Origin: Actinotalea lenta | GTDB lineage: Bacteria > Actinomycetota > Actinomycetes > Actinomycetales > Cellulomonadaceae | Direction: 5' to 3' | DNA length: 64,000 nt | Assembly: GCF_030586465.1 (NCBI RefSeq) | Contig: NZ_JAUQYP010000002.1 | Location: 252,279 to 316,278, forward strand | Part shown: positions 37,340 to 55,079 of the stretch, piece by piece | How the letters are laid out: the number at the start of each line of letters is the position of its first letter | Position numbering within the stretch: the first letter of the stretch is position 1 | Position numbers and translations under genes: made by a program | The notes under the pieces: generated by a model | Told to the model about the DNA's origin: nothing | Seen by the model: only the letters and a program-made list of their open reading frames with translations | Database searches by the model: none

Positions 37340-37416
37340 TAGGCCTTTGGGCCTAGCCCGGGTGAGTCGCGTTGACCCGTACGGGTGTCAGGCGCCACCG
37401 ATACGGGGGACCGTAT
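37340..37416. repeat. Three inverted repeats before the secreted VLDTR-module protein
   Basis: TAGGCC/GGCCTA with loop TTTG (37340-37355), the perfect palindrome ACCCGTACGGGT (37375-37386), and ATACGG/CCGTAT with loop GGGA (37401-37416) follow each other. The third covers the ATG at 37415 and puts its G-rich ribosome site in the loop. They may be operators or RNA control structures. Confidence 0.45.
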
Positions 37417-39667
37417 GTCGGAATCATCCCCTTTTCGAGGTCGTTCTGGGAGCGTTGCACCAGGGGCCCGCGATCGTGGGGCCGCGTCCGTGGCGAAGAG
37501 GTGTGGCGTGCGACGATCACGAGTGGCAACGGTCCTGGCGGCGGTGATGGTGATGGTGGCCCCGGTGGCCGGCGCGACACCGGCCGCGGCGGTGGTCGCC
37601 ACGACCGTCGGCGGCACGCTTGCGGTCGACCCCGGCGCGGGGGTCGGTTCCGTCCTGGCCCACCTGGACTGCGGAGCCGTGCCGACCGCCCTGGTCGGTG
37701 CGCTGGGTGCGGACGGAGGGCCGTTCGAGTTCGACGTCACGACGTCCTCGACCGCCACCTGCCGACTGAACGTGATCGTGCTCGGCAACGGTGAGTGGTC
37801 CCTGGACGGGTGGTACGTGGACGAGGGGACGACCGGCCGGCTCGGTCTCGACTCCGAGGCGACCGTGATCACCGTGCACCCCGGCGACACCCTCAGCCTT
37901 CCGCCCATCACCGTCAGTCGTGCGGTGCTCACGGTGGACGTGGCCGACTCGGCGGGTCGCGACCTCGGTTCGTCGCTCGACCCTGCCTCAGCCGTCGTGC
38001 TCCGGGGGGCCGGTTCCCTCGATCCGACGGACGCGACGGGCAGCGGGGGAAGCCTGAGCCTGCTGCCGGGCTCGACCTACCTCGTGGACGCCAACCGGGC
38101 GCCTCGCGAGTCGCCCTACACCGGGCGGTACTACGCCGGTGATGGCGCGCTCGGCGCCGCGAGCGCGGCCGCTGCAACGACCGTGAGCCTGGCCGCCGGC
38201 GAGGCGCGCACGGTATCGGTCCGGCTGGATGGGTGCGCCACGGTCAGCGGCACCGTCGCCGGTGGAGCGGACCTGACGGACCGGACCGTCACCGTCGCGA
38301 ATCCTTCCGATCCAGACCTGGTGACCCGCCTGGGGACGGTGGCCGCAGACGGCTCGTTCACGGTGCGGGGGCTCCTGCCAGGCGACTACTACGTCTGGGC
38401 ATCGGCCGTCGCCAGTGCGACCTCGTCCCAGGTCACCGGCCCGTACTACCGCGGGGCGGATCCCGCGGCGGACGCTGCCCCGCTGCACCTGTCGGGCTGC
38501 ACGGCGACGGCGGCCGGCCTGGTGCTCGAGCTCCCGGGCCTCAGCGGCGTCATCTCGCAGACCCCCGTGCGGGTGCGGGACGATCGTGCCGTGCCTCCCG
38601 ACGCCCCTCGCTGCGTCCAGGTCGCGGGGACGGCGGGCGTCCCCGAGTCCGCGGCGGGGGCCGTGCTCAACGTCACGACCGACGGGCCCACCGGGCCTGG
38701 ATACGTCGTGGTGTACCCGGACAGCTCGGGCACGGGGAACACCGCCCCGCCCCGAGGGTCCACCGTGAACTTCGAGGTCGGCGCGTCGGTTGCCAACGCG
38801 GCATTCGTCCGCCTACCCGACGACGGCAAGCTGTGCTATGCGACGCGCGGACCGAGCACGGTGCGGATCATCCTCGACGTCACCGGATACATGATGTCCG
38901 GCTCGGGGATCACGACGCAGGTCTCGCAGCGCCTGCTCGACACCCGCCTCGCGACACACGTAGGCCAACTCGCCGGCGCACTTGACCCCAGGCAGGTGTA
39001 CACGGTGGACGTCGCGGGCCACGCCGGGGTCCCGAGCGACGCCACGGGTGTCCTGGTCAACGTGACAGTGGTCGGCGCGACTGCACTCGGGCACCTACGG
39101 GTCTTCCCGGGGGGTGCCGCGGTCCCCAACGCCTCGACGGTGAACTATGCCCCGGGGCAGACGAAGGCCAACGCCACCGTGGTCTCGTTGTCCGCCGCGG
39201 GCGCGATCTCGCTGTACTCGGTGACGTCCACCAGGGTCGACGTGATCCTGGACGTCGTGGGCTGGGTGTCCGCGGGGGGTGCATACGCGCCGATCACGCC
39301 GACCCGGGTGATCGACTCCCGCCCGGGCTCGGGCCGCACGAACCTGGAGGGCCCGCTCACGGGGCGCATCCCGTACCAGGTCGACCTCGGAGGTGCGGCC
39401 GGGATTCCTGCGGATGCGACCGCGGTGGTGCTCAACGTGACAGCGGTGCACCCGACGGCTCTCGGCAACCTCCGGGTCTACCCCTTGGCGTTCAACGGGG
39501 ATGACACGCCCCCGTACGCGTCCTCAGTGAACTACATCCCGGGGCGGGACATCCCGAACCTCGTCGTGGTCGGCATGCAGCCGCACTCCACCGTGGTGTT
39601 CTACTCGGACACGTCCGGATCGGTGAACGTGATAGCGGACGTGGTCGGCTACCTCACGGCGCCGTGA
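37415..39667 (+). CDS. Secreted cell-surface protein with CnaB-like domains and tandem VLDTR modules
   Basis: The 750-residue protein has a long charged start, then a signal peptide (RRSRVATVLAAVMVMVAPVA, Ala-X-Ala end). The N-terminal half contains carboxypeptidase-regulatory/CnaB-like beta domains, for example CATVSGTVAGGADLTDRTV and GSFTVRGLLPGDYYVWAS. The C-terminal 350 residues hold three copies of a module of about 115 residues: a degenerate first copy (PRCVQVAGTAGVP to ILDVTGYM), then RLLDTR to LDVVGWVS and RVIDSR to ADVVGYL. Two more secreted proteins here share the module. No catalytic motif is seen. ATG 37415 is used; GTG 37490 would give a more normal signal peptide. A palindrome (39654-39667) spans the stop. 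Confidence 0.7.
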   Translation: MSESSPFRGRSGSVAPGARDRGAASVAKRCGVRRSRVATVLAAVMVMVAPVAGATPAAAVVATTVGGTLAVDPGAGVGSVLAHLDCGAVPTALVGALGADGGPFEFDVTTSSTATCRLNVIVLGNGEWSLDGWYVDEGTTGRLGLDSEATVITVHPGDTLSLPPITVSRAVLTVDVADSAGRDLGSSLDPASAVVLRGAGSLDPTDATGSGGSLSLLPGSTYLVDANRAPRESPYTGRYYAGDGALGAASAAAATTVSLAAGEARTVSVRLDGCATVSGTVAGGADLTDRTVTVANPSDPDLVTRLGTVAADGSFTVRGLLPGDYYVWASAVASATSSQVTGPYYRGADPAADAAPLHLSGCTATAAGLVLELPGLSGVISQTPVRVRDDRAVPPDAPRCVQVAGTAGVPESAAGAVLNVTTDGPTGPGYVVVYPDSSGTGNTAPPRGSTVNFEVGASVANAAFVRLPDDGKLCYATRGPSTVRIILDVTGYMMSGSGITTQVSQRLLDTRLATHVGQLAGALDPRQVYTVDVAGHAGVPSDATGVLVNVTVVGATALGHLRVFPGGAAVPNASTVNYAPGQTKANATVVSLSAAGAISLYSVTSTRVDVILDVVGWVSAGGAYAPITPTRVIDSRPGSGRTNLEGPLTGRIPYQVDLGGAAGIPADATAVVLNVTAVHPTALGNLRVYPLAFNGDDTPPYASSVNYIPGRDIPNLVVVGMQPHSTVVFYSDTSGSVNVIADVVGYLTAP

Positions 39668-39670
39668 CCG

Positions 39671-40801
<1,131 letters not shown>

Positions 40802-40802
40802 T

Positions 40803-40835: not shown

Positions 40836-40851
40836 CGGCGTCAGGGTTCGC

Positions 40852-43578
40852 ATGAGTCTCCGCATCGTCGTCAGTGCAGCCCTGGCCGCTCTCGGCCTGG
40901 CCGTCCCGCTCGCCCTCAGTCATGCGGCCGCTCCCGCCCCGACGCTCCTCGAGGACCGCATCGTCGGAGGCCCCAGCCAGCTCGACGCCTTCGACGCGGC
41001 CGCGCGGACCGCTGCGGCCACGGACACCAGGACGCCGCCGGCCTCGGAGGCCGCCCAGGTCCGCACCCTGGACGTCGAGGTCGCCACCTCCCACGACGGC
41101 CTCGCCATGGCCCCGACGGCGCCCGGCAGCACGGGACGGCTCGTCGCGGACGCCGTCAGCGGCGGTCGGGTGCAGAGCGCCACCATGACGACGGGCGACT
41201 TCCAGACCCTTGGCCTGACCTGGCCCGACGGTGCCGACGTCGCGGGCCTGGACCCGCAGGTGCGCACCCGCAGCAAGGGCGGCACGTGGACGGACTGGAC
41301 GGCCCTGCCCGCGTCCGACAACAGCCCCGACGCCGGCACCCCGGACGCCGAGCGCGCCAAGCGCGGTGGCACGGACTCGCTGTGGGTCGGGGACTCGGAC
41401 GCGGTCCAGGTGTCGTTCGCCGCCGACCGGGCCGCGAAGGCCTCCGGTCTCGAGCTCGCCCTCGTGGACGTCCCGCCGATCCCCGCCGCAGCTGCCCAGA
41501 GCGTGGGCACGGCGTGGTCCGGTCAGGCGCAGATCGTCCCTGCCGTGGCAGGCCTGCCCACGCTCAGCCAACCGCGGATCATCTCCCGCGAGCAGTGGGG
41601 TGCGCGCCCCCAGGTGTGCCAACCGGCCGTCGCCGATGGCCTGGTCGGTGTCGTGGTGCACCACACCGCGGACTCCAACGACTACTCCACGGTCGCCGAG
41701 GCGATGCAGAAGATCCGTGGCGACCAGGCGTACCACATCGACGGTCGCGGCTGGTGCGACATCGGCTACAACTTCATCGTCGACAAGTGGGGCAACATCT
41801 ACGAGGGCCGGGACAACTCCCTCACGGAGCCCGTCATCGGCGTGCACGCGGGAGGGTTCAACACGGGCACGGTCGGGATCTCGATGCTCGGCACCTACTC
41901 CGCGGCACCGCCCCAGGTCACCCAGGAGGCCGTCGCGACCCTGGTCGCCTGGCGCCTGCGGGAGTACCACCGGGACCCCACCGCGACGATGCGGTACTAC
42001 ACCTACTGGGGCGAGAACTCCCGGTTCGACCACCAGTGGGTGACGCTGCCGCGCGTGCTCGGCCACCGGGACGTCGCCTACACGGCGTGCCCCGGCCAGG
42101 GCGGGTACGAGGCCCTGCCCTGGATCCGCACCCGCGCCAAGCAGCTCATCGGGCCGTCGTTCATCGACCCGACCGCTCCCAAGACCGTCGCGTCCGGCCA
42201 ACCCGTGACCCTCACCGCGTCGACCATCGGGGACCTCTCCTGGTCGCTGACCGTCCGTGACCCCCTGACCGGGTACACGTTCGCCACGAACTCGGGAGTG
42301 GCGCTGCAGTCCGACGGCGGGCTCTCCGTCACGTGGGACGGCACCAACGGCGCCGGGCTCCCTGTCGGTGCCGGGACGTACTCGATGTACGTCACGGGCA
42401 CGGACCAGGCGACCGGGGCCAGGGTCGTGCCCATCGACCAGCGCGTCGTCGTGACCCGGACGGACAACCCACCGACGGTGGACCCGGTCCCGCTGGTGGG
42501 CGACCTCACGTTCCATGCGATCACGCCGGAGCGGGTGCTGGACACGCGTCCGTCCGCCCAGTCCCTGGGGCCGCGCTCGCGCGCCGACGTCAAGGTCGCC
42601 GGGGTCGGTGACGTCCCGGCGGACGCGAAGGCCGTGTCGGTCACCCTCACCGCGGTGGCGGCCTCGACCGCGACCTTCCTGACCGTGTGGCCGGCCGGTG
42701 CCGACCGACCCCTAGCCTCGATCCTCAACGCCGACGCGCACCACACCGTTCCCGCGAGCACCATCGTGGGAGTCGGCGGTCAGGGCATGATCAGCGTCTA
42801 CAACGCCTCCGGCTCGGTGCACGTGGTCGTCGACGTGACCGGCTACTGGTCCGACGACGGCGCCGGCGACCTGTTCACGCCCCTGCCCACCGCGACGCGG
42901 CTGTACGACTCGCGCACCTCGGGCGGGCAGTTCGCGAGCGGGGAGACCCGGACCCTCACCGTGGCCGGCGTCGACGGCGTGCCCGCGGACGCGACGGCGG
43001 CGATGCTCAACGTGGTGTCCGTCGGCGCGAAGGACGACGGCTACGTCTCGGTGGTGCCGCACGGCAGCGACCCGACCCTGACCTCCACGGTCAACAACGT
43101 GCCGGGGGGAGACGCCGCCAACCGCTCCCTGGTCCCGCTGTCGGGCGGCCAGGCCGACGTCTACCTCCGCGGGGGCGCGGCGGACGTGGTCGTGGACGTC
43201 GTCGGCTGGGTCGGGCCGTCCGGCTCGTACCGCTTCACGCCGGTGCAGCCCGTGCGTGCCTTCGACACCCGGGACGCCAGCGCGCCGCTGACCGAGGGGG
43301 AGCAGCGGACCTTCCAGCTGCGCGACGCCGTCGGAGCGGCCGACGCGCAGCTCGCCCTGGTGAACCTCACGGCGACCCAGGAGACCGCGCCGGCGACCTA
43401 TCTGACGGTGTGGCCCGGGGGCTCGGACCAGCCCGGGACCTCCGACCTGAACGCCAGCAGGGGCCGTGACCAGGCCAATGCCACGGTGGTCGGTTGGGAC
43501 AGCGGCGGAGAGGTCACCGCATACAATGCACGAGGCTCGACCCATCTGATCGCGGACGTGTACGGCTTCTTCCGCTGA
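40852..43578 (+). CDS. Secreted N-acetylmuramoyl-L-alanine amidase with FlgD-like Ig domain and three VLDTR modules
   Basis: The 908-residue protein has a signal peptide (cleavage after SHAAA, about residue 27). An N-terminal domain runs to about 230. The amidase_2/PGRP domain spans about 241-433, with the first zinc ligand in VVVHHTAD (H270), the others in GHRDVAYTACPG (H405, C413), and WGNIYEGRD. A FlgD-like Ig domain (about 443-540), the linker VPLVGD and three modules (555-668, 676-791, 794-908) follow. The enzyme cuts between MurNAc and L-Ala of peptidoglycan. The C-terminal half is closely paralogous to that of the SpoIID protein at 52380. Confidence 0.92.
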   Translation: MSLRIVVSAALAALGLAVPLALSHAAAPAPTLLEDRIVGGPSQLDAFDAAARTAAATDTRTPPASEAAQVRTLDVEVATSHDGLAMAPTAPGSTGRLVADAVSGGRVQSATMTTGDFQTLGLTWPDGADVAGLDPQVRTRSKGGTWTDWTALPASDNSPDAGTPDAERAKRGGTDSLWVGDSDAVQVSFAADRAAKASGLELALVDVPPIPAAAAQSVGTAWSGQAQIVPAVAGLPTLSQPRIISREQWGARPQVCQPAVADGLVGVVVHHTADSNDYSTVAEAMQKIRGDQAYHIDGRGWCDIGYNFIVDKWGNIYEGRDNSLTEPVIGVHAGGFNTGTVGISMLGTYSAAPPQVTQEAVATLVAWRLREYHRDPTATMRYYTYWGENSRFDHQWVTLPRVLGHRDVAYTACPGQGGYEALPWIRTRAKQLIGPSFIDPTAPKTVASGQPVTLTASTIGDLSWSLTVRDPLTGYTFATNSGVALQSDGGLSVTWDGTNGAGLPVGAGTYSMYVTGTDQATGARVVPIDQRVVVTRTDNPPTVDPVPLVGDLTFHAITPERVLDTRPSAQSLGPRSRADVKVAGVGDVPADAKAVSVTLTAVAASTATFLTVWPAGADRPLASILNADAHHTVPASTIVGVGGQGMISVYNASGSVHVVVDVTGYWSDDGAGDLFTPLPTATRLYDSRTSGGQFASGETRTLTVAGVDGVPADATAAMLNVVSVGAKDDGYVSVVPHGSDPTLTSTVNNVPGGDAANRSLVPLSGGQADVYLRGGAADVVVDVVGWVGPSGSYRFTPVQPVRAFDTRDASAPLTEGEQRTFQLRDAVGAADAQLALVNLTATQETAPATYLTVWPGGSDQPGTSDLNASRGRDQANATVVGWDSGGEVTAYNARGSTHLIADVYGFFR

Positions 43579-43628
43579 CGGGTCGCCTTCCCGACATCCG
43601 TCGGGCGACCGCGACCGGAGACTGGGGA

Positions 43629-44510
43629 ATGCCGACGTACGACACGACCGTCGATCCCGACGCGGCCAACACCAGCCACGCCCTGATGCTGGACCTCGTG
43701 GGCGGTGGCTCCCGGGTGCTCGACGTCGGCTGCGCGACGGGCTACCTCGCCCAGGCGCTCGCTGCCCGCGGGTGCACGGTGAGCGGTGTCGAGATGGATC
43801 CCGCCGCCGCGGAGATCGCCAGGCCGCTGCTCGACCGCCTGGTGGTGGGCAACCTCGCGGAGCTCGACCTCGTCGCCGAGCTCGGGGCGGGTCAGTTCGA
43901 CGTCGTCGTGCTCGGTGACGTCCTGGAGCACCTCGAGCAGCCGGAGGCCGTGCTGCGCTCGATGGTCCCCCTGCTGGCACCCGGCGGCTCGTTCGTGATC
44001 TCCACGCCGAACGTCGCGCACGGCTCGCTGCGGCTCGGCCTGCTGCTCGGCCGCTGGGAGTACACCGACCGCGGCCTCCTGGACCGCACCCACCTGCGGT
44101 TCTTCACGCGTGCCTCGCTGCGCGCGCTGCTGCGGACCGCGGGCCTGGTGCCCACGGAGCTGCGCCGCACCGTCGTCGACCCGCTCGGGGGCGAGGTGCG
44201 GATCGATCCCGCCACCCTGCCCGCCGGGCTGATCGACTGGGTCCGCGCGCAGCCCGATGCGGACACCTATCAGTTCGTGTGGCGCGCCGTGCCGGACACC
44301 GACGCGGCGGTCGCCCAGCTGGCGCGCGAGCGTGACGAGCTGACCGACCGGCTCGGAGCCCTCGGCGCCGAGCTCGCGTCCGCGCGGCGCGAGCGGGACG
44401 ACGCCCGCGGTTCCCTGGACGAGCTGCAGCGGACCCGGGTGATGCGCTGGAGCGCCCTGCCGCGCGGTGCCTACCGCCGCGTGCGGACCGCGATGGGGCG
44501 CGGCCGATGA
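43629..44510 (+). CDS. SAM-dependent methyltransferase with coiled-coil tail (glycan chain modification)
   Basis: The 293-residue protein has a class I methyltransferase fold: SRVLDVGCATGYLAQALA (SAM loop), VSGVEMDP (acidic ribose contact) and FDVVVLGDVLEHLEQPE. From about residue 230 a coiled coil (LARERDELTDRLGALGAEL) and a basic end (RGAYRRVRTAMGRGR) follow. Placed directly before Wzm/Wzt, it may methylate the non-reducing end of the polymer, as in O-antigen ABC systems where chain length is set by capping. That role is inference. It overlaps wzm by ATGA. Confidence 0.82.
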   Translation: MPTYDTTVDPDAANTSHALMLDLVGGGSRVLDVGCATGYLAQALAARGCTVSGVEMDPAAAEIARPLLDRLVVGNLAELDLVAELGAGQFDVVVLGDVLEHLEQPEAVLRSMVPLLAPGGSFVISTPNVAHGSLRLGLLLGRWEYTDRGLLDRTHLRFFTRASLRALLRTAGLVPTELRRTVVDPLGGEVRIDPATLPAGLIDWVRAQPDADTYQFVWRAVPDTDAAVAQLARERDELTDRLGALGAELASARRERDDARGSLDELQRTRVMRWSALPRGAYRRVRTAMGRGR

Positions 44511-45340
44511 GCCTGGTCAGCGACACGTTCCGGTCGCGCGAGCTGCTCGCCAACCTCACCCGGCGGGAGATCAGCGGCAAGTACAAGCGCACCGCGCTGG
44601 GGCAGCTCTGGTCGCTGGTGAACCCGCTCGCCCAGATGGTGATCTTCTGGGCGGTCTTCTCCTTCGTGATCCGGATCAAGCCGGCGCCCGGTGACCCGAG
44701 CGGGCTGGACATCTTCGCGGTGTGGCTGCTGTGCGGGCTGCTGCCGTGGGCGTTCTTCGCCAACGTCGTGAACAACGGCATGGCGTCGCTCGTCAGCAAC
44801 GAGAACCTGATCAAGAAGGTCTGGTTCCCCCGGCTCGTGCTGCCGGTCTCCTCGACCCTCGCGGTCGTGGTGAGCTGGGCGATCGAGATGGCCGTGCTGA
44901 CCGTCGTCCTGGTCGTGGTCGGGGGGCGCCCGCTGGTCTGGCTCCCGCTCGTGGTGGTCGCCATGGCCCTGCTGGCGTTGTTCTCCCTCGGTGTGGGGCT
45001 GATGTTCGCCGTGCTCAACGTCTACTTCCGCGACACCCAGCACTTCATCGGCATCCTCATGCAGGCGTGGTTCTACGCGACCCCGGTCATCTACCCCGTG
45101 AGCTACGTCGCCAAGGTCTCCGGCGAGACCGGGGCGCTGTTCGGCTCCGTCACGCTGTACGACCTGTACCGCCTCAACCCGATGGAGCGATTCCTCGAGG
45201 TGTTCCGGACGCTGCTGTACGACAACCGCTGGCCGCCGCTCGACTCGACGCTCGCGGCGTTCGGCTGGGCGGCGGCCGCGCTCGCCCTCGGCCTGTGGGT
45301 CTTCTCGCGGCACCAGCGCAGGCTCGCGGAGGTGCTGTGA
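44507..45340 (+). CDS. wzm: Polysaccharide ABC-2 exporter permease, Wzm-like
   Basis: The 277-residue inner-membrane protein has six helices, a cytosolic start (RSRELLANLTRREISGKYK) and TALGQLWSLVNPLAQMVIFW, all typical of Wzm/TagG-type permeases. FVPLVVV-like helices and NPMERFLEVFRTLLYDNRW at the end complete the fold. Wzm with Wzt exports undecaprenyl-PP-linked polysaccharide or teichoic acid. It overlaps the methyltransferase upstream (ATGA) and wzt downstream (GTGA), so all three are one transcript. Confidence 0.93.
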   Translation: MSLVSDTFRSRELLANLTRREISGKYKRTALGQLWSLVNPLAQMVIFWAVFSFVIRIKPAPGDPSGLDIFAVWLLCGLLPWAFFANVVNNGMASLVSNENLIKKVWFPRLVLPVSSTLAVVVSWAIEMAVLTVVLVVVGGRPLVWLPLVVVAMALLALFSLGVGLMFAVLNVYFRDTQHFIGILMQAWFYATPVIYPVSYVAKVSGETGALFGSVTLYDLYRLNPMERFLEVFRTLLYDNRWPPLDSTLAAFGWAAAALALGLWVFSRHQRRLAEVL

Positions 45341-46536: not shown

Positions 46537-47900
46537 GACGACGGGTCCTCGTGGTCACCCTCGACACGATCGGTGACCGGATGGCCGGGCCGGCGATCCG
46601 TGCCTGGGAGATCGCCCAGGCTCTCGCGGCCGAGCACGACGTGCGCCTCGTCACCTTCGGTGCCTGCACGCGCAGCGACGGCCGGGTCTCGCTGGGCCAG
46701 GTCACCGTCGACGGGTTCCGGGCCGAGGTGGAGCGGGTCGACGTCGTCGTGGTGCAGGGCTTCGTCTTCGCGACGTTCCCCTGGTTGCAGACGTGCGAGC
46801 AGGTGCTCGTGGTGGACCTGTACGACCCGTTCCAGATCGAGACCCTCGAGGTGGACCGGTTCAAGCCCCGCGCCGAGCGCCAGCATGCGCTGCGCACCGC
46901 GCTGGCCGAGCTCGCCGCCCAGCTGCGCCGCGGCGACCTGTTCCTGTGCGCCTCGGCGCGCCAGCGCGACCTGTGGATCGGGCACCTGACGGCCGCGGGA
47001 CGCGTGAACCCCGACACGTATGACGCAGACCCGAACCTGTCCCGGTTGCTCACCGTGGTGCCGTTCGGCATGCCCGCGGAGCCGCCGCGGCAGGCCACCC
47101 GGGCGATCAAGGGAGCGGTCGACGGGATCGGGCCGGACGACGTCGTGCTGCTGTGGGGCGGCGGGGTCTACAACTGGTTCGACCCGATCACGTTGGTCCG
47201 CGCGGTCGACCGGCTGCGCCACGAGATCCCCACCCTGCGGCTGTACTTCCTGGGGATGCGGCACCCGAACCCCGACGTGCCCGAGATGGCGGTCGCGGCC
47301 AGGACCCGGCGGCTCGCCGAGGAGCTGCACCTCGTGGGCAGCCACGTGTTCTTCAACGAGGAGTGGGTGCCCTACGAGCGCCGGGCGGACTTCCTCCTGG
47401 ACGCGGACATCGGTGTGAGCTGCCACTTCGACCACGTCGAGACGGAGTTCTCGTTCCGGACCCGGATCCTGGACTACCTGTGGGCCGGCCTGCCGATCGT
47501 CAGCACGCGGGGTGACTCCTTCGCGGCGATGGTCGAGCGCGAGGGCCTCGGACGCACCGTCCCCGCCGCCGACGTCGAGGCGCTCGTCGACGCCCTGCGG
47601 GACCTGATCACGCGGCCCGACGAGCTCGCCTCGGCCCGAGCCGCCGTGCGGCGCGTGGCGCCGAGCCTGACCTGGCCCGAGGTCCTCGCGCCGGTGCTCG
47701 AGTTCTGCCGGGAGCCGCGCCGGGCCGCCGACGCGGAGCACCTGCCCCCGATCGCCACTCCGGAACGCCCGTCGCTGGCCGGTCGGGTGATCTCCGACGT
47801 GCGCGCCGTCGGCCACCACCTGCGCGCCGGCGGACCGCGCCAGCTGCTCGCGAAGGTCCGCTGGCGGCTGGCGAGCAACGCGTCGCGTCGTCGCGGCTAG
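46533..47900 (+). CDS. Glycosyltransferase family 4, fourth gene of the Wzm/Wzt operon
   Basis: The 455-residue GT-B enzyme starts RRRVLVVTLDTIGDRMAGPA, with the GPAIR acceptor loop. The donor domain has DDVVLLWGGGVYNWFDP and FSFRTRILDYLWAGLPIVST, where an Asp-Tyr-Leu-Trp stretch replaces the more usual E-x7-E motif. The C-terminal tail is basic (HHLRAGGPRQLLAKVRWRL). The GTG at 46533 overlaps wzt (GTGA). Its final TAG is part of CTAG shared with the stop of the convergent GT2 gene. Donor and acceptor sugars are unknown. Confidence 0.88.
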   Translation: MRRRVLVVTLDTIGDRMAGPAIRAWEIAQALAAEHDVRLVTFGACTRSDGRVSLGQVTVDGFRAEVERVDVVVVQGFVFATFPWLQTCEQVLVVDLYDPFQIETLEVDRFKPRAERQHALRTALAELAAQLRRGDLFLCASARQRDLWIGHLTAAGRVNPDTYDADPNLSRLLTVVPFGMPAEPPRQATRAIKGAVDGIGPDDVVLLWGGGVYNWFDPITLVRAVDRLRHEIPTLRLYFLGMRHPNPDVPEMAVAARTRRLAEELHLVGSHVFFNEEWVPYERRADFLLDADIGVSCHFDHVETEFSFRTRILDYLWAGLPIVSTRGDSFAAMVEREGLGRTVPAADVEALVDALRDLITRPDELASARAAVRRVAPSLTWPEVLAPVLEFCREPRRAADAEHLPPIATPERPSLAGRVISDVRAVGHHLRAGGPRQLLAKVRWRLASNASRRRG

Positions 47901-49339
47901 CGGACCGAGCGGAGCTGGACGAACGGGTCGCGGTACGCCTCGGCGCGCCAGTGCGCGACCATGAAGTCCCGCTCGGCCTGCTCGACTCGTGCCGTGCGTG
48001 ACGCCGACTCGTAGTGGAACAACCGCACGGACGGCGCGACGACCACGCGCCGTCCCGCGGCCCGCACCTTGAAGCAGAAGTCGACGTCGTTGTAGTTCAG
48101 TGGCAGGGCGGTGCACAGGCCGCCCACGTCGACGAACAGCCGGCGCGAGGTCAGCAGGCACGCGCCCGTCACGGCGGGGTAGTCCAGGTCCAGGCTGCCC
48201 ATCCCGAAGTGGCCGGTGCCGTCCGTCTCGAACATGAACGGGTGCGAGGGTTCCCACACGTCGTTGTGCATGACCCCCAGGTGCTGGACCCGGCCGTCCG
48301 CGAAGACGAGCTTGGCGCCGACCACGCCGACGCTCGGATCGGCCTCGACCGCGACCATCTGCCGCAACCAGCTCGGGTCGTCGGCCTCGGTGTCGTCGTT
48401 GAGCAGCAGCACGAGCTCGCCGGAGGCGACCCGGACGCCCTCGTTGATCGAGCGGGAGAAGTTGAAGTCCCCGGCCACGTGGGTGACCGTGAGGCGGTCG
48501 CCCGCCTCGGCACGGACCTCGTCGACCACCTCGGGAGGGGTCCCTTCGCTGGTGACCAGCACGACGTCCCAGGACGGGTAGTCGGTCGTCGCGACGAGCG
48601 AGCGAACGCACCGGGTCACGAGGCGGACCCGCTCACCGCGGACCTCGCGCGACGTCCCGGCCGTGGGGATCACCACGCTCACCGTCGGGGGCTCGGGCAC
48701 GGCGCGCCGCACCCGGACCCCGCCCGGCGGCTCCGCGGCCTCGACCCGCGCGTCGACGCCCGTGCGGCGCAGGTGGCGCTCGACCGCAGCGATGCACGCC
48801 GTCGGGTCGGGCTGGGGCGCGTGCGGTCGCGACACGCCGACGAGCGGCAGGTGCTCGACCGTCGCGCCCCGCTCGATGACCCGCAGCTGGGCGTCGCGCT
48901 CCTCGACCCCTTCGGTGCCGGACAGGAAGCCCCCGGCGTCCTGCAGCAGCTCACGCCGCACCAGGCACAGCCGTCCGAGGTAGCCCAGGGCCACGTGGTA
49001 CGCGGGGTTCCAGTCGGGCTTGGTGAAGATCCCCGAGGCTCCCTCGCCCGGCCACTGCTCATCGGTGTAGAGCACGTCCACGTCGGGGTGCCGGGTGAGG
49101 TACGTCACCGCCGCCTCGAGCACGCCCGGCTCGACCAGGTCACCCGGCTCGAGGACGCCGACGTAGCGACCCGAGGCCCGGGCGAGGGCGGCGGCCAGCT
49201 CGTCCGCGGTGCTCGCGTCCGGCGTCCGGGGTCCGAGCACCTCGACCTGCCGGGCCGATGCGCGCACGGTGCTGAGCGTGGTCGTGACGTCCTGCGCGCG
49301 GCCCGGGCCCAGCAGCAGAGAGATGACGGGATGCGTCAT
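47897..49339 (-). CDS. Glycosyltransferase family 2 with degenerate N-terminal domain
   Basis: The 480-residue protein has two GT-A-like halves. The first (1-210) keeps VISLLLG and DVLYTDEQW but lacks clear catalytic residues. The second (225-460) has SVVIPTAGTSRE, LLLNDDTEADDP (metal-binding Asp pair), LDYPAVTGACLLTSR and YNDVDFCFKVRAAGRR, typical of active GT2 enzymes acting on rhamnan-like or O-antigen chains. It overlaps the small coiled-coil gene upstream by ATGA. Its TAG stop overlaps the stop of the other glycosyltransferase. Confidence 0.88.
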   Translation of the reverse strand: MTHPVISLLLGPGRAQDVTTTLSTVRASARQVEVLGPRTPDASTADELAAALARASGRYVGVLEPGDLVEPGVLEAAVTYLTRHPDVDVLYTDEQWPGEGASGIFTKPDWNPAYHVALGYLGRLCLVRRELLQDAGGFLSGTEGVEERDAQLRVIERGATVEHLPLVGVSRPHAPQPDPTACIAAVERHLRRTGVDARVEAAEPPGGVRVRRAVPEPPTVSVVIPTAGTSREVRGERVRLVTRCVRSLVATTDYPSWDVVLVTSEGTPPEVVDEVRAEAGDRLTVTHVAGDFNFSRSINEGVRVASGELVLLLNDDTEADDPSWLRQMVAVEADPSVGVVGAKLVFADGRVQHLGVMHNDVWEPSHPFMFETDGTGHFGMGSLDLDYPAVTGACLLTSRRLFVDVGGLCTALPLNYNDVDFCFKVRAAGRRVVVAPSVRLFHYESASRTARVEQAERDFMVAHWRAEAYRDPFVQLRSVR

Positions 49340-49699: not shown

Positions 49700-49763
49700 G
49701 TGGGCAGTGTGTGTTCTCCGGTAGGACGCCGTGAACGTTCCGGGTGCGCCGCGACCCCCGATC

Positions 49764-49769: not shown

Positions 49770-49775
49770 TGGGCG

Positions 49776-52277
49776 GTGCGCGTCGTTCAGGTGTCGGCTC
49801 ACTACCCCCCCAACTTCGTCAGCGGGGGGACGCTGGTCCCTCAGCGGATCGCCCGACACCTGGCGGCGCAGGGCCACGAGTCCCTCGTCTACGCCGGTCA
49901 CCTGGACGAGTCACGCGCACCGCTGGACACCTGGGAGGACGTCGACGAGCAGGGGGTCCGGGTCCGCTGGGTCGTCACGACTCCGTGGACGGCGTGGTCG
50001 GACCCGCTCAACACGCTGAACCCGGCGGTCGAGGCTGATGCGGAGCGATGGTTCGCCGAGGTCCGCCCCGACGTGGTCCACGTCCACGCGTTGCAGACGC
50101 TCGGCGGTGGCGTCCTGCGTGCGGCCAAGCGGTCCGGGGCGGCCGTGGTGGTGACGATGCACGACTTCTGGTGGACGTGCGCCCGGCAGTTCCTCATGCC
50201 CGCGGTCGGTCCCGAGTGCAGCCTCGTCGTCTCGTGCGGCTCGTGCCCGTGCGCCGTGGACCACGCCTGGCTCGAGCGGCGCAACAGCGAGCTGCAGGCG
50301 TACCTCGAGCACGCGGACCTCGTCCTCGCACCGTCGGAGTCGGCCGCACGCGTGCTGGCCGCGAACGGGGTGGCGGCCGACCGCATCGAGGTCGACGAGA
50401 ACGGTGTGCAGGGCGTGTCCGGACCGGCGGCCCCGCGGGGGCCCCGGACCGGGCCGGTCCGCTTCCTGTACGCCGGTGGGGACGACCCGATGAAGGGCGT
50501 CGAGACGCTGCTGGCCGCGGTTCCGGGACTCCCCGACGACGCCGCGTGGACGCTGGACCTCTACGGCGTCGCGGGGCGGACCGGGCTGCCGTCCGGCGTC
50601 CGGGCGCACCCGCCGTTCGGCCGCGACGAGCTGGGTGCCGTGCTCGCCGACCACGACGTGCTGGTCCTGCCGTCGCGGCTGCGGGAGTCGCACTCGATCC
50701 TGACCCGCGAGGCCCTGCAGGCCGGCCTGGCGGTGGTCTGCACCGAGTCGCTGGGCCCGGAGGAGGTCGTCGAGCACGGCGTCACCGGGATGGTGGTCCC
50801 GATCGACGGCGCTGCCGAGCTGGCCGAGGCGATGGGTGTGCTCGCGCGCGACCCGGCGCTCGTCCACCGGATGGGCGAGGCCGGACGCCGCGTGCGGCTG
50901 CGGGACTGGCAGGACCAGCTCGACGGTCTCGAGCGCCGCTACCAGGAGCTCGCGGACGCCGGCGGCCGCTCGCAGACGGTCCTGCACGCGGCGGAGCTCG
51001 CCCTGCTGCACGACGTGGTCGTCATCACCGGCATCAACGGTGCGCCGCTGCGCTACCGGGGTCAGCTGCCGGCGGAGGCGCTCGCGCTGCACGGGCACCA
51101 CGTCGAGGTACGGCACTACCGCGACCCCGAGCTCCCGGACCTGCTGGACAGCGCTGACGCGGTCGTGCTGTACCGGGTGCCCGCGACCCACCAGGTCCTG
51201 GACCTGATCGCCGCGGTCCGCCGACGCGAGCGGACGGTCCCGGTGCTGTTCGACGTCGACGACCTGATCTTCGACCCGCAGATGGGTCAGGTCGAGGGGC
51301 TGGGCAGGCTGAGCCGCGCCGAGCAGGACCTCTGGTGGCGGGGCGTGGCCCGGTACCGCACCACGATGGAGCAGTGCGACGCCTACGTGGGCAGCACCGC
51401 CTTGCTGTGCGAGCGCGCCACCGCGCTCACCGGCATGCCCGCGTTCCGGTTCGCGAACGGGGTCGGCACCGCGCTCGCGCGCGTCAGCGATGCCGAGGTG
51501 GACCGGCCCCGGGCCGACGGCCCCCTGCGGATCGGGTACTTCTCCGGGACCAAGACCCACGACGCGGACTGGGCGAGCATCGAGCCGGCCGTCGCCCAGG
51601 TGCTGCGGGAGCGCCCGGAGGTCGAGCTGTGGCTCGGCGGCCTGGTGACGCCTGGTCCGCTGCTCGACGACCTGGCGGACCGGGTGCGGCGGCTCCCGAT
51701 GGTGCCGTGGCACACGTTGCCCGCCTACCTGCGGGACGTGGACGTGAACCTCGCGCCGCTGGTCCTGGGGACACCGTTCAACGAGGCGAAGTCCGCGATC
51801 AAGTGGCTCGAGGCGGCGCTCGTGCAGACCCCGACGGTCGCCTCGCCCACCCAGCCGTTCCTCGAGGCGATCACCGAGGGGCGGACGGGCCTGCTGGCGA
51901 CCGACCACGACGACTGGGTCCGGGCCATCGGTCGGCTGCTCGACGACGACCTGCTGCGTCGCCGGGTCGGGGTGCTGGCCGAGCGCGAGGCCCTGCTGCG
52001 GTGGGGCCCGCACCTCCAGGGGCTCGCCTACCAGCGCATCCTGGTCGAGGTCGCCCGGATCCGGCGCGCGGACGGCCCACGCGTGACGTCGTGGGAGCCC
52101 GTGCTCGACGACGAGCCGCTCAGCGCCGCCGACGCCTGGGTGGAACCCCTCGTGGTCCCCCGGGTCCGGCAGTCCGACGGCCGGTTGCGGCAACGCTGGC
52201 GTGCGGTGCGCCGGGTGTACGCGGCCGGGGGCCCTCGCGAGGTGACGCGGCGCGTCGCTGCACGGCTCCGGGCCTGA
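49776..52277 (+). CDS. Two-domain glycosyltransferase (tandem GT4-type fusion)
   Basis: The 833-residue protein joins two GT-B enzymes. The first (1-390) has VSAHYPPNFVSGGTLVPQRI, an acceptor domain with MHDFWWTCARQFLM, a Cys-rich CSLVVSCGSCPC stretch and the donor motif ESHSILTREALQAGLAVV. The second (about 405-800) has GAPLRYRGQLPAEALALHGH, PVLFDVDDLIFDP, IGYFSGTKTHDADW and PFNEAKSAIKWLEAALVQ. The tail is basic (YAAGGPREVTRRVAARLRA). A fused enzyme could add two different sugars or a disaccharide repeat. GTG 49776 follows a -10 element; a preceding ORF extension lacks support. Confidence 0.87.
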   Translation: MRVVQVSAHYPPNFVSGGTLVPQRIARHLAAQGHESLVYAGHLDESRAPLDTWEDVDEQGVRVRWVVTTPWTAWSDPLNTLNPAVEADAERWFAEVRPDVVHVHALQTLGGGVLRAAKRSGAAVVVTMHDFWWTCARQFLMPAVGPECSLVVSCGSCPCAVDHAWLERRNSELQAYLEHADLVLAPSESAARVLAANGVAADRIEVDENGVQGVSGPAAPRGPRTGPVRFLYAGGDDPMKGVETLLAAVPGLPDDAAWTLDLYGVAGRTGLPSGVRAHPPFGRDELGAVLADHDVLVLPSRLRESHSILTREALQAGLAVVCTESLGPEEVVEHGVTGMVVPIDGAAELAEAMGVLARDPALVHRMGEAGRRVRLRDWQDQLDGLERRYQELADAGGRSQTVLHAAELALLHDVVVITGINGAPLRYRGQLPAEALALHGHHVEVRHYRDPELPDLLDSADAVVLYRVPATHQVLDLIAAVRRRERTVPVLFDVDDLIFDPQMGQVEGLGRLSRAEQDLWWRGVARYRTTMEQCDAYVGSTALLCERATALTGMPAFRFANGVGTALARVSDAEVDRPRADGPLRIGYFSGTKTHDADWASIEPAVAQVLRERPEVELWLGGLVTPGPLLDDLADRVRRLPMVPWHTLPAYLRDVDVNLAPLVLGTPFNEAKSAIKWLEAALVQTPTVASPTQPFLEAITEGRTGLLATDHDDWVRAIGRLLDDDLLRRRVGVLAEREALLRWGPHLQGLAYQRILVEVARIRRADGPRVTSWEPVLDDEPLSAADAWVEPLVVPRVRQSDGRLRQRWRAVRRVYAAGGPREVTRRVAARLRA

Positions 52278-52321
52278 CGGGCTCCGGAACAGGACATCTC
52301 GGGACACCGCGACGGGGCGTC

Positions 52322-52350
52322 TTGGAGTGCCGCGGGTCGGCGCTTACGCT
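52322..52350 (+). promoter_or_regulatory. Promoter of the SpoIID-like gene
   Basis: TTGGAG (52322-52327), a 17-base spacer and TACGCT (52345-52350) fit a sigma-70-type promoter. A leader of about 23 nt carries AGGACCAGG before the ATG at 52380. Confidence 0.6.
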
Positions 52351-52379
52351 GGCATGACACCCGTCGAGCGAGGACCAGG

Positions 52380-55079
52380 ATGACCCGAATCCGCACCGTG
52401 CTGTCGTCGCTGACCGCACTCGCACTGGCCGCCGTCGGCCTGCTCGTGCCCACGGCCGCCGTGGCGGCCGACCCGGAGGTGTACCCGGTGCCGGCCACCG
52501 GGGCGTGGCTGGTGCACGGGCACGGCTGGGGGCACGGGCGCGGCATGTCCCAGTGGGGGGCGCAGGGCGCCGCCGTGCAGGGCGTGCCGGCCGACCAGAT
52601 CCTCGACTTCTACTACCCGAAGACCGCCACCGCCGACGTCGGCGACCCGACGCTGCGGGTCGGGCTGGCGGCGTACTCGCCGACGCTCTCGGTGACGCTG
52701 TGGAACCCCCCGGGCCAGACCGTCGTCACGTTCGTGGGCGTGGAGGAGGGTGACACGGCCGAGACGGCCTGGACCCTGATGGCGCGGCGCTACACGGTGT
52801 CGGTCTCCGGCCAGACCGTGACGATCCAGCCGCGCGACACGATCGGCGGCCCGGACCTCAGCCCCATGACGTACACGGGCCCGGTGACGATGTCCACGGG
52901 CGACGGCGTGGTGGTCGCACCCGAGCCGACCAGCACCACCGGCACCTGGTACCGCGGGCGCATCGAGGTGCGGCCCGCGACCACCGGCTTCAACGTGACC
53001 AACGTGGTGCCGATGGAGGAGTACCTGCGTGGGGTGGTGCCGCGTGAGTCGCCCGCGTACTGGAAGCCCGCGGCGCTCCAGGCGCAGGCCGTCGCCGCCC
53101 GCTCGTATGCGCTGTACAAGAAGGAGCACGCCTCGGGGGCGGTCGACCTGTGCGACACGACGGCGTGCCAGGTCTACGGCGGTCGGGCGACCGCGACCTG
53201 GAACGGGTCGGCGTCCGACGGCACCGCGACCGCCAAGGAGTCGGTCTCGACCGACCTGGCGATCGAGGCGACCGCGGGACAGGTCCGGACCTACGGCGGC
53301 CACACGGCCCTGACGGAGTTCTCGTCGTCGAACGGTGGCTGGACGCGGGCCGGGGGGGTGCCGTATCAGGTGGCGAAGGCCGACCCCTGGACGGGCAGCG
53401 CGCCCGGCGACCCGGTGTCGAGCTGGACCACGGCGCTCAGCGTGGAGCGCGTGCAGCGGTCCTGTCCGTCCGGCGGTGACCTGCGCCAGATCGTCGTGCT
53501 GTCCCGGGACGGCAACGGGGACTACGGCGGCCGCGTCACGTCGGTGCGGCTCGACTGCACGACCGGCTCCACGACGATCTCCAACCCGGCGTTCGGGATG
53601 CGGTCCTCCTGGTGGCAGATCGACACCACACCCCCCGCGCTCGACGGCTTCCAGGCCTCGGCGACGTCGATCGCCAGCGCGGGGTCCGTGACGGTCTCCG
53701 CCGTGCCCAACCTCAGCATGGACTACCAGCTGCGGGTCACCGACGAGCGCACCGGGCGGGTGGCGGCGACGGCGACGGCCGAGGCGGTCGCGGGGCAGCG
53801 GTTCTCCGTGACGTGGAACGGCCGCACCGACGGCGGGACCGCCGTGGGGGCGGGCCCGTACCGCGTCGCGCTGCGCGGCGTCGACCAGGCCGGACGGGTC
53901 TCCGCCTGGGTGTCCGCGCTGGTCCAGGTGGGTACGGCGCCCAACCCCGCCCCGGTCGCGGCGGTGCCGCTGGTGGGTGACGGCGGGTACGTCGCCGTCG
54001 CGCCCGTCCGCCTGCTGGACACCCGCGAGACCTTCACCTCGATGGGCGCCCGGCAACGGCAGGACCTCCAGGTCACCGGCGTGGCCGGCCTGCCGACCTC
54101 CGGGGTGACCGCGGTCGTGCTGAACGTGACGGCCGTGAACGCCTCGCAGGAGACGCACCTGCGTGCGTGGCCCGCGGGGTCCCCGATGCCCCCGACGTCG
54201 ATCCTCAACGTCGGGCCCGGCAGGACGCAGGCCAGCATGGCCGTGGTCGCCGTGGGCGGGCAGGGCAAGATCAGCCTGTACAACGCGGCGGGCGTGACCC
54301 ACGTGATCGTCGACGTCGTCGGGTACTTCAGCACGGCGCTGGGCTCGGCGGCCGGCTACCACGCGGTCGACCCGCTGCGCGCGTACGACTCCCGCGCGAG
54401 CGGCCAGTCGCCGCTCGCGCCCGGAACCCCGAGGGCGGTCGACGTCGCGGGCAAGCTCGGCATCGCCCCGACGCAGATCGGTGCCGTCCTGGTGAACCTC
54501 ACGACCGTGGCGCCCCGTGGCCAGGGGTACGTCGTGGCCTACGGGGGGTCGGCCGTCCCGTCCGTCTCGACGGTGAACCTGCGGCCCGGGGTGGACGTCG
54601 CCAACCGCGCGGTCGTGCCGGTGGTCGACGGCCGCATCATGCTGGCGTCGCGGGGCTCGTCCACCGACGTCGCGGTCGACGTGGTCGGGTGGTTCGGCAC
54701 CGCGGGCAGCGGCGACGGCTCGCTGTACACGCCGGTGCAGCCCGTCCGTCTGCTCGACACGCGCACGTCCTCGGCGCTGCCGCCGCACGGCACCGTCTCG
54801 GTCCGGGCGGGCTCGGCGGCACCGGCGGCGGCGTCGGCCCTGAGTGGTTCGGTCACCGTGGTGTCCACCACGGCGACCAGCACGCACCTGCGGACCTGGC
54901 CGAGCGGAACGCCGATGACGGCGGCGTCGGACGTCAACGCGGTGCGCGGTACCACGCAGAGCAACGCCGTGGTCGTCCCGCTGTCCAGCGGCAGCTCTCC
55001 GGCCGTGTCGATCTACAACGCCGCCGGCAGCACCCAGGTGCTGCTGGACATGACGGGGTACTTCGCGCCGCGGAGCTGA
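52380..55079 (+). CDS. Secreted SpoIID/LytB-domain protein with FlgD-like Ig domain and three VLDTR modules
   Basis: The 899-residue protein has a signal peptide (cleavage near AVAAD, about 30). The SpoIID/LytB region spans about 40-410. The GHGWGHGRGMSQWGA motif stands first (47-61), and VVPMEEYLRGVVPRESP with its catalytic glutamate comes near 213-229. Then comes a FlgD-like Ig domain (about 420-515), the linker VPLVGD and modules at 536-651, 659-775 and 782-899. SpoIID enzymes are lytic transglycosylases on denuded glycan strands. Here no stem-trimming partner is adjacent, but the amidase at 40852 with the same C-terminus could create such strands. Confidence 0.85.
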   Translation: MTRIRTVLSSLTALALAAVGLLVPTAAVAADPEVYPVPATGAWLVHGHGWGHGRGMSQWGAQGAAVQGVPADQILDFYYPKTATADVGDPTLRVGLAAYSPTLSVTLWNPPGQTVVTFVGVEEGDTAETAWTLMARRYTVSVSGQTVTIQPRDTIGGPDLSPMTYTGPVTMSTGDGVVVAPEPTSTTGTWYRGRIEVRPATTGFNVTNVVPMEEYLRGVVPRESPAYWKPAALQAQAVAARSYALYKKEHASGAVDLCDTTACQVYGGRATATWNGSASDGTATAKESVSTDLAIEATAGQVRTYGGHTALTEFSSSNGGWTRAGGVPYQVAKADPWTGSAPGDPVSSWTTALSVERVQRSCPSGGDLRQIVVLSRDGNGDYGGRVTSVRLDCTTGSTTISNPAFGMRSSWWQIDTTPPALDGFQASATSIASAGSVTVSAVPNLSMDYQLRVTDERTGRVAATATAEAVAGQRFSVTWNGRTDGGTAVGAGPYRVALRGVDQAGRVSAWVSALVQVGTAPNPAPVAAVPLVGDGGYVAVAPVRLLDTRETFTSMGARQRQDLQVTGVAGLPTSGVTAVVLNVTAVNASQETHLRAWPAGSPMPPTSILNVGPGRTQASMAVVAVGGQGKISLYNAAGVTHVIVDVVGYFSTALGSAAGYHAVDPLRAYDSRASGQSPLAPGTPRAVDVAGKLGIAPTQIGAVLVNLTTVAPRGQGYVVAYGGSAVPSVSTVNLRPGVDVANRAVVPVVDGRIMLASRGSSTDVAVDVVGWFGTAGSGDGSLYTPVQPVRLLDTRTSSALPPHGTVSVRAGSAAPAAASALSGSVTVVSTTATSTHLRTWPSGTPMTAASDVNAVRGTTQSNAVVVPLSSGSSPAVSIYNAAGSTQVLLDMTGYFAPRS

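Follow-up and report, generated by a model that had tools for sequence, protein, structure and literature searches.

Three proteins encoded at a wall-glycan locus of Actinotalea lenta end in the same kind of module triplet, and we favor the view that this triplet is a non-covalent anchor on wall glycan, at this locus likeliest the polymer that is exported by Wzm/Wzt and fixed by LCP proteins. As relatives with other polymer genes bear another tail on the corresponding enzymes, the triplet would probably be a clamp on the polymer of its neighboring genes. The triplet, together with the SLH, LGFP and DUF4214 tails that replace it at other locus types, provides named anchor candidates for sortase-free retention of secreted hydrolases on the walls of actinobacteria.

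Nine modules in three proteins of a wall-glycan locus

The stretch of DNA analyzed (the window; 64,000 nucleotides) encodes nine modules of ~118 residues each, three in each of the proteins P1, P2 and P3, with module spans of 38543-39664, 42505-43575 and 53982-55076, respectively. Profiles built from two of the proteins recovered 3/3 modules of the third with E-values of 2.4e-16 to 2.6e-33 (Z = 3000), values that exclude chance. All nine modules of the original prediction, three ending each of three proteins, were thereby found in place, and the gene content it gave for the locus, with LCP, Rml, Wzm/Wzt and glycosyltransferase genes between the modules, was much as claimed when judged by domain matches. 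The features are as follows, with modules placed by the held-out profiles.

34897-35352, minus strand: LCP (LytR_cpsA_psr) domain, copy 1 (C2:287175-287630)
36367-36867, minus strand: LCP (LytR_cpsA_psr) domain, copy 2 (C2:288645-289145)
37385-39667, plus strand: P1, probably secreted (by eye), three C-terminal modules; 760 residues from the GTG at 37385, with an ATG at 37415
38543-38905, plus strand: P1 module 1 (RDDR)
38903-39280, plus strand: P1 module 2
39278-39664, plus strand: P1 module 3
39671-40789, minus strand: RmlB-like NAD-dependent sugar dehydratase (name inferred from Pfam matches)
40852-43578, plus strand: P2, probably secreted amidase, three C-terminal modules; Amidase_2 at residues 266-416, weak FlgD-Ig-like linker match
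42505-42861, plus strand: P2 module 1
42868-43224, plus strand: P2 module 2
43228-43575, plus strand: P2 module 3
43626-44510, plus strand: methyltransferase
44507-45340, plus strand: Wzm-like ABC-2 membrane protein
45337-46536, plus strand: Wzt, ABC ATPase with Wzt_C domain
46506-47900, plus strand: glycosyltransferase (group 1)
47897-49339, minus strand: glycosyltransferase (family 2)
49776-52277, plus strand: double glycosyltransferase (group 1/family 4)
52380-55079, plus strand: P3, probably secreted SpoIID/LytB-domain protein, three C-terminal modules; SpoIID at residues 202-305, weak FlgD-Ig-like linker match
53982-54341, plus strand: P3 module 1
54351-54707, plus strand: P3 module 2
54720-55076, plus strand: P3 module 3 (P3 triplet, 53982-55076, is the modeled unit)

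Common to the modules is a core of PxRxxDTR, P, (V/L)LNVTxV, P, P, SxxN, N and DVxGY. This agrees with the conserved motifs described earlier except at the opening of P1 module 1, which has RDDR instead of LDTR. Modules are more similar within one protein (0.48-0.52) than between proteins (0.38-0.41), and still their number is three. The N-termini of the module-bearing proteins are signal-like as judged by eye, and P1, P2 and P3 are probably secreted. Upstream of its modules P1 shows a weak CarboxypepD_reg match and nothing else. The RmlB-like dehydratase has best matches of 75-87% identity in 13 of the 16 congeners with fetched loci.

A predicted all-beta unit outside named domain families

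For 29 proteins with a triplet (P1-P3 at E ≤1, four proteins at 0.01 and 22 at 0.001), none of the Pfam matches listed fell inside a module, and an NCBIfam scan of P1-P3 returned no match in the module regions; the module is, as first proposed, without a named domain in the proteins scanned. A search for sequence relatives in the PDB gave none that was convincing (best E 0.45), and a search of open-access papers for module sequence strings listed no relevant one.

The structure models are almost all beta. Modeling of the P3 triplet (pLDDT 96.7, pTM 0.93) predicts a rigid, all-beta unit in which three jelly-roll-like beta sandwiches of one chain pack together. Foldseek comparison of the triplet with the PDB retrieved C1q heads at E 7e-6, with a single-chain three-domain C1q head at the top rank, but the best match had a TM of only 0.24. 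For one module, no PDB structure matched at E ≤0.001; the best E was 1.4e-3, TM ranged from 0.33 to 0.53 among the 50 matches listed, and the weak matches included BclA, CBM6, CBM4 and BC2L-C. Structure comparison was also used to seek a known fold family for the module, and none was settled on.

The module is constant in number and varied in its partners

A profile search of the source genome found 21 modules in 7 proteins, each with three. The fourth carrier is a subtilase at C2:314.4-318.6 kb, whose frame opens within the window and runs on for 2.4 kb past its end, and the carriers on contig C1 are a beta-helix protein, a weakly matching metalloprotease and a PD40 protein. Across 74 named loci and the source genome, exactly three modules were present in 86/100 uncut ORFs and more than three in none; the remaining 14 were pieces confined to four loci. 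Plasmid proteins taken as a test carried three modules in 8/8 cases. The module also occurs on a scaffold of Rudaea, a Gram-negative genus, which speaks against a wall-glycan anchor. Seven stretches were obtained when viral contigs were searched with the P3 pattern, none of which encodes a relative.

Partner domains elsewhere include subtilases, a thermolysin-type protease, a chitinase, a CHAP protein and RCC1 proteins. An informative domain was present in 8/20 partner proteins (S8 twice, RCC1 twice, M4, GH18, CHAP and Amidase_2), another 6/20 had only Ig- or fn3-like matches and 6/20 had no match. With an amidase, a SpoIID protein, a subtilase, proteases and others as carriers, the sequences bear out the earlier claim that module and catalytic domain are independent of each other.

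The expected co-occurrence with glycan genes across genomes was seldom seen elsewhere. At the 74 named loci, any cluster-protein match was found in 16, a Wzm-like match in 1 and a Wzt-like match in 5, in flanks of at most 8 kb (much less on some contigs) searched with the window proteins at E 1e-10, a search that misses distant exporters. A general tie of the module to Wzm/Wzt loci was rejected on these counts. This broad scatter without glycan loci would suit a generic carbohydrate-binding module for external polysaccharides of plants, fungi or biofilm matrix and not the cell's own wall, as would the jelly-roll-like fold, for which CBM6 and CBM4 are weak matches, and partners such as the GH18 chitinase, the proteases and the beta-helix protein. 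We nevertheless consider such a function unlikely: the carriers in the genus, an amidase and a SpoIID protein, are by family enzymes of the own wall, SLH or LGFP tails replace the module on such enzymes in other genomes, and a fixed triplet is atypical of CBMs.

Amidase and SpoIID proteins carry matched tails that differ between loci

In relatives, the amidase and SpoIID proteins of the Wzm/Wzt/LCP locus bear other tails, namely DUF4214, FG-GAP, SLH or LGFP. The tails of the two enzymes were homologous in 26 of the 28 loci in which both were at least 30 residues long (permutation mean 6.2, maximum 15), with the linker before the modules counted in triplet-type tails; these 26 matches represent a much smaller number of independent events, perhaps six kinds. 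One of the two misses, L271, is a real mismatch, and in the other, L248 (E 0.0013), the locus end cut the tail to 33 residues. L260 and L261, where SpoIID has no tail, were left out. Of 125 genomes from other genera in which SpoIID had a match, the 38 top-scoring supplied loci, as did two lower ones; these 40 order-level loci, being picked mostly by score, are not a random sample. Within the genus, both enzymes were obtained from 11 of 19 genomes, SpoIID alone from G001, G003 and G012, the amidase alone from G004, G005, G007 and G017, and neither from G006; the 20 fetched locus stretches cover 16 of the 18 congeners, all except G001 and G012.

Tail kinds were first labeled by eye, and the labels that Pfam does not confirm rest on that judgment. 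DUF4214 was found in 5/5 genomes with a DUF4214 locus, by match positions on both enzymes in all five, compared to 0/14 others; the DUF4214 tail of L262 was also confirmed by Pfam. G004, which has an SLH-tailed amidase, holds 12 of the 19 SLH matches of the genus. LGFP had no match in the 19 genus genomes, source included, where no locus seen uses it; LGFP tails were recognized by eye on both enzymes in 8 loci of another family of the order, with Pfam confirmation for both enzymes of L237. Pfam identified FG-GAP on both enzymes of G009, G013 and L267, on the G010 amidase and on the G012 SpoIID protein, while the SpoIID protein of L263, from the same order, ends in three CWB2 repeats. No convincing Pfam match was obtained for the SpoIID tail of G001 or the amidase tails of L258 and L266. 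A search of the open-access literature for matched amidase/SpoIID tails in actinobacteria found none. These comparisons support the view that the module occupies the tail position taken by SLH, LGFP or DUF4214 at other loci.

Matched tails might also arise if the triplet were a spacer or oligomerization block lacking a specific ligand, and either whole loci moved as blocks or modules were copied from one gene to its neighbor, an explanation to which we assign a low probability. Several of the fold matches (BclA, C1q, OX40L and BC2L-C) are trimeric types. The triplets of P2 and P3 are 42% identical, compared to 33-34% for either with P1, and triplet-type enzymes lie together in both catalytic trees with weak to moderate support (54/85 and 86/90). 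However, the P2 triplet is nearer to the amidase triplets of other genomes (50-57%) than to P3 of its own genome, so any copying would be old; the nearest non-triplet relatives are not the same for the amidase and the SpoIID protein; and the genome-wide use of DUF4214 and SLH tracks locus type, a link that does not follow from block transfer. Part of the tail matching could be due to such transfer.

Within the genus, triplet use at the glycan locus goes with one exporter type

Wzm proteins resembling the window copy are found in G005 (64% identity), G011 (65%), G002 (63%) and G007 (48%), compared to ≤37% in the 13 other congeners with a match. In these four genomes triplets lie at the Wzm/LCP locus or next to it, and the C-terminal part of their Wzt is 44-60% identical to that of the window, compared to ≤31% elsewhere. 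In G007, which is of triplet type by both Wzm and Wzt, the amidase is ~35 kb away and has another tail, and SpoIID gave no match. The catalytic domain of P2 is 67% identical to that of the G011 amidase, with a 58% identical tail, and 68% identical to that of the G016 amidase, with dissimilar tails.

RpoB does not group the triplet-type genomes (AU p 5.2e-5, 18 genomes). The five triplet genomes form a group in the Wzt tree only; in the Wzm tree they stay unresolved, and G003 shares their open fork. Besides the DUF4214 genomes themselves, their Wzm clade takes in G004 (SLH), G017 (another tail) and G006, which lacks DUF4214, so exporter clade and module kind do not correspond one to one. Moreover, module matches are present despite another locus type in G003 (7), G018 (3) and G014 (1, weak). 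Such carriers, and the many actinobacterial ones with no visible Wzm/Wzt neighbor, would be expected if the triplet bound peptidoglycan or some general wall feature and module kind tracked lineage or wall chemistry indirectly. We find this highly improbable, as it leaves unexplained both the unrelated, exporter-linked tails of amidases whose catalytic domains are 63-68% identical and the difference between G000 and G016, near neighbors by RpoB (94%).

The sequence data thus support an association in the genus between module use at the glycan locus and one Wzm/Wzt type. The link first drawn to glycan loci in general does not stand in that breadth, and holds within the genus for this exporter type.

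A proposed anchor role

The anchor reading that we favor has gained comparative support from the tail swaps and matched pairs, although its general tie to glycan loci has fallen away. In this mechanism, the triplet would act as one functional unit that holds a secreted protein on wall glycan; at the window locus this glycan would most likely be the one that the neighboring Wzm/Wzt pair exports and LCP proteins attach to the wall. P2 and P3, the amidase and the SpoIID/LytB protein, would be the resident wall-remodeling pair of the locus, and a shared anchor may be what both require to work on a glycan-coated wall. A switch of locus type would then entail a switch of the anchors on both enzymes.

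More tentatively, actinobacterial wall-glycan loci may carry an anchor code, in which the shared tail of amidase and SpoIID (triplet, DUF4214, SLH, LGFP, FG-GAP propellers and others) would be the receptor for the glycan type of the locus and locus exchange would force anchor replacement genome-wide. The triplet would be a new single-chain trimeric beta-sandwich receptor and DUF4214 another. An anchor function would suggest a role for DUF4214 and supply non-covalent display tags.

Comparison with known anchoring systems

SLH triplets (PF00395) are a close parallel in design, in that three tandem repeats of one chain form one unit, and in the congener G004 the amidase of the corresponding locus ends in SLH repeats. 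According to the account in PMC6081394, three SLH repeats bind wall polymers as a non-covalent anchor with a pseudo-threefold arrangement and a three-helix core. The known ligands of SLH triplets are pyruvylated secondary wall polymers. SLH, with a model of 44 positions, is helical at its core, whereas the module has ~118 residues and is all beta in the models; SLH gave 0 matches in the source genome and none in P1-P3 at E ≤1.

In Clostridioides difficile, 29 proteins are described as carrying CWB2 (PF04122) in triplicate at one terminus, N or C, and as binding the wall polymer PSII with all three repeats needed, some of them being encoded beside the proposed polymer locus (PMC4973711). The CWB2 repeats are position-specialized in that description, whereas the window modules resemble others of the same protein more than those of the other two, and CWB2 had no match in P1-P3 at E ≤1. 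Like the triplet, LGFP (PF08310) forms matched tails on the amidase and SpoIID protein of corresponding loci, there in a different family of this order, but it is unlike the triplet in sequence. The C1q/TNF-like and CBM jelly rolls share a weak fold likeness with the module, while the global arrangement of the triplet is unmatched among them.

In Bacillus subtilis, the wall teichoic acid region is listed as including a SpoIID/LytB protein and an amidase with tagU and polymer genes (PMC8753576). LytB is described there as an enhancer of LytC in PMC7176660, while PMC10653849 lists it as not hydrolyzing peptidoglycan, cites it as a modifier homologous to autolysin and SpoIID, and places LytC under Amidase_3. 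Like P3 and P2, LytB and LytC are a SpoIID protein and an amidase at a wall-polymer locus with a common tail module, although P2 is an Amidase_2 enzyme. The common wall-binding repeats of LytB and LytC are CWB2 and not the window module. The triplet would work like three SLH or three CWB2 repeats but is, as judged from sequence, a separate family.

Modules and their carriers

The original prediction placed nine modules in threes on three secreted proteins, and this was borne out, with modules of ~118 residues in three open reading frames (ORFs):

37385-39667, P1, a protein with a weak CarboxypepD_reg match only
40852-43578, P2, an Amidase_2 protein
52380-55079, P3, a SpoIID protein

All three have N-termini that resemble signal peptides, as judged by eye. 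The prediction had called for a profile HMM, and a profile from any two proteins recovers the three modules of the third (E 2.4e-16 to 2.6e-33). The suggestion that the module lacks a named domain also stood, since neither Pfam nor NCBIfam gave a match to the modules of P1-P3. The observation is correct and understated: the window genome holds 21 modules on seven proteins, three apiece. The fourth carrier is a subtilase that also has FG-GAP repeats; its open frame begins within the window and stops 2.4 kb past the window's end. Another contig encodes the other three: a PD40 protein, a beta-helix protein and a metalloprotease that matches weakly. The glycan region or its vicinity accounts for four of the seven carriers, and the remaining three are elsewhere.

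Module number was counted in the window genome and in 74 named loci; the loci come from a search of a genome collection, of whose 220 confirmed stretches 80 were kept. Exactly three modules were found in 86 of 100 module-bearing ORFs uncut by a locus end, and more than three in none. The other 14 are confined to four loci (L075, L081, L089, L105) and are overlapping pieces in differing frames, the pattern expected of frame-broken genes or sequencing errors. Three modules were likewise present in 38 of 41 ORFs from loci of the genus and phylum samples, a set with overlaps and many truncations, and in all eight plasmid-record proteins read, from 13 listed records matching in the module region (P3 matched 22 records overall). 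The triplet is C-terminal in 66 of the 86 ORFs, N-terminal in 16 and internal in four. Across 279 modules, likeness is 0.48-0.52 within a protein versus 0.38-0.41 between proteins. The fixed number and alike copies suggest a functional unit of three.

In the Cellulomonas sp. Root485 draft, triplet genes are split into overlapping frames (L075 12257-14097; L081 1-2885 and 7785-9632), by either real decay or sequencing error. Runs of adjacent triplet genes also occur, with four intact and one frame-broken at L105 (Actinokineospora) and four at L118 (a Chloroflexi MAG).

Predicted structure

AlphaFold2 models the P3 triplet as nearly all beta (pLDDT 96.7, pTM 0.93) and gives 97.7 and 0.89 for a single module; the high pTM implies that the relative placement of the three modules is confidently predicted. 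In Foldseek searches of the PDB with the triplet, single-chain C1q heads ranked first and third (E 7e-6 and 1e-5, TM 0.24-0.25). One module gave weak jelly-roll matches to BclA, CBM4, CBM6, the BC2L-C lectin, OX40L and a trimeric phage cement protein; E values were all above 0.001, and TM was 0.33-0.53 among the best 50. Matches to predicted phage proteins were better (E to 1.6e-5, TM to 0.72). We take the modelled fold to resemble a jelly roll and to have no close relative among solved structures. Near-invariant residues are the P, R, D and R of PxRxxDTR, the N and T of LNVT, the S and N of SxxN, and the D and G of DVxGY.

Amidase and SpoIID proteins carry matched tails

The more interesting part of the finding is a rule of matched tails.

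Tails of the two enzymes in the genus (G000, window genome; G001-G018, congeners)
Tail	Amidase	SpoIID (gene near Wzm)
Triplet	G000, G002, G005, G011	G000, G002, G011
DUF4214	G008, G014, G015, G016, G018	G008, G014, G015, G016, G018
FG-GAP repeats	G009, G010, G013	G009, G010 (by eye), G012 (no Wzm found), G013
SLH repeats	G004	–
FG-GAP-like repeat, no Pfam match	–	G001
Other repeats	G017, G007 (~35 kb off its locus)	G003

The tails match in all 11 genomes of the genus having both enzymes. The sample from other genera comprised 40 loci, 19 with both enzymes and 17 with both tails; 15 of these 17 pairs match (phmmer, E < 1e-3), one, with a cut tail, stands at 0.0013, and one is a mismatch. Overall, 26 of 28 pairs match versus a permutation mean of 6.2 and a maximum of 15 in 10,000, although the permutation ignores relatedness and independent events number far below 26. 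Outside the genus the tails are of LGFP, FG-GAP or DUF4214 kind (Pfam confirms each of these at one locus) or belong to one of two further repeat types.

P2 and the G016 amidase share a 68% identical catalytic domain and have unrelated tails, whereas P2 and the G011 amidase are 67% identical in the catalytic domain and 58% in the tail. FG-GAP-type amidases are just 39-42% identical to P2, and thus the enzyme differs there too. In the catalytic trees triplet- and DUF4214-type amidases are close, triplet-type SpoIID proteins are nearer those of G001 and G003, and triplet-type sequences cluster in both (support 54/85 and 86/90).

Elsewhere in the order, LGFP occurs on both enzymes at L237-L239, L241-L244 and L246 (L237 Pfam-checked, the rest by eye), and at L238, L241-L244 and L246 Wzm or Wzt matches share the stretch with the pair. 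Within a single genus, g224, two kinds of matched tail occur among three genomes: a 'SELLxY' repeat pair (L258, L264) and a DUF4214 pair (L262).

Locus types across the genus

Wzm and LCP matches are present in all 19 genomes except G012. Identity to the window Wzm is 63-65% in G002, G005 and G011 and 48% in G007, and does not exceed 37% in the remaining 13 genomes that gave a match; the Wzt C-terminal part parallels this (44-60% in those four genomes versus at most 31% elsewhere). In the same four, triplet proteins lie within or adjoining Wzm/LCP genes (on separate short contigs in G005). Thirteen of the 16 fetched congeners, with tails of triplet, DUF4214, SLH or other kinds, have a counterpart 75-87% identical to the RmlB-like gene; none was seen in the stretches fetched for the FG-GAP-type loci of G009, G010 and G013. 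RpoB rejects a clade of the five triplet-type genomes (AU p 5.2e-5; 18 genomes, G010 missing), and the nearest relatives of the window genome, G013 (95%) and G016 (94%), have different locus types. The five group together in the Wzt tree (SH-aLRT 96); in the Wzm tree they and G003 share one open fork.

CAP-domain proteins with Ig and triplet regions adjoin LCP genes in G011 (L188 16381-19110) and G007 (L185 16383-19094); they appear to be an additional resident of loci of the triplet type.

Genome-wide use and distribution

A tail that reads the glycan would be expected on other secreted proteins as well. DUF4214 is found in exactly the five DUF4214-locus genomes (11-34 matches each) and in none of the 14 others (Fisher 8.6e-5, uncorrected for relatedness); four of these genomes have some of their matches at a distance from the locus or on a different contig, and the fifth, G015, has all 11 on the contig that carries the locus. 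The triplet occurs in five of five genomes with a triplet-type locus and three of 14 others, but its p of 0.005 is partly circular because the locus itself holds triplet genes, and the three exceptional carriers count against a strict code. SLH matches number 12 in G004, which has the SLH-tailed amidase, three each in G012 and G017, and one, weak, in G008; LGFP has none in the 19 genomes.

DUF4214, of unknown function, is all-or-none in the genus and sits on the amidase and SpoIID proteins of the glycan locus in exactly the five genomes tabulated; it may be a wall anchor too. G006 and G015 have 99.7% identical RpoB and 0 versus 11 DUF4214 matches, a possible recent exchange of wall-anchor systems between near relatives.

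Module matches occur in eight of the 19 genomes (21, 42, 18, 15, 7, 6, 3 and 1) and in 20 of 296 genomes of a phylum sample, where 15 candidates per genome were scored and module counts are therefore lower bounds. Among sampled genomes the module is absent from most and numerous in some, and named matches indicate the Cellulomonas/Actinotalea group.

Triplet loci filed under Stenotrophomonas (L132) and Planococcus (L139) have Wzt matches 47-49% identical, close to the 46% of a Microbacterium locus (L114), and may be misassigned contigs. A further triplet protein (L116) is encoded by a 2.25 Mb Rudaea cellulosilytica scaffold. This bacterium is Gram-negative; a Gram-positive wall glycan is excluded as the ligand there.

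Comparison with known anchors

We favour reading the triplet as a putative wall-glycan anchor, a role we consider reasonably probable, whereby it would bind the glycan that the neighbouring Wzm/Wzt exports and LCP fixes. Membership of the SLH, CWB2 or LGFP families was considered, and by sequence the triplet belongs to none of the three. We class it as an undescribed, anchor-like domain belonging to a functional kind that is already known.

Non-covalent anchors built from three repeats have precedents. CWB2 is described as occurring in triplicate, with all three copies required, and as binding PSII, whose proposed locus adjoins several CWB2 carriers (PMC4973711). This classical triple wall anchor occupies the same tail position on a SpoIID protein of the order (L263 9002-11515, three CWB2 repeats; no amidase was found at L263). 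SLH triplets are reported to bind pyruvylated wall polymers via residues from several repeats (PMC6081394). In B. subtilis, the amidase LytC and the SpoIID-family LytB are grouped with tagU and polymer genes (PMC8753576), LytB being cited as a modifier homologous to both autolysin and SpoIID (PMC10653849). LytC/LytB and P2/P3 look like the same arrangement with a different anchor.
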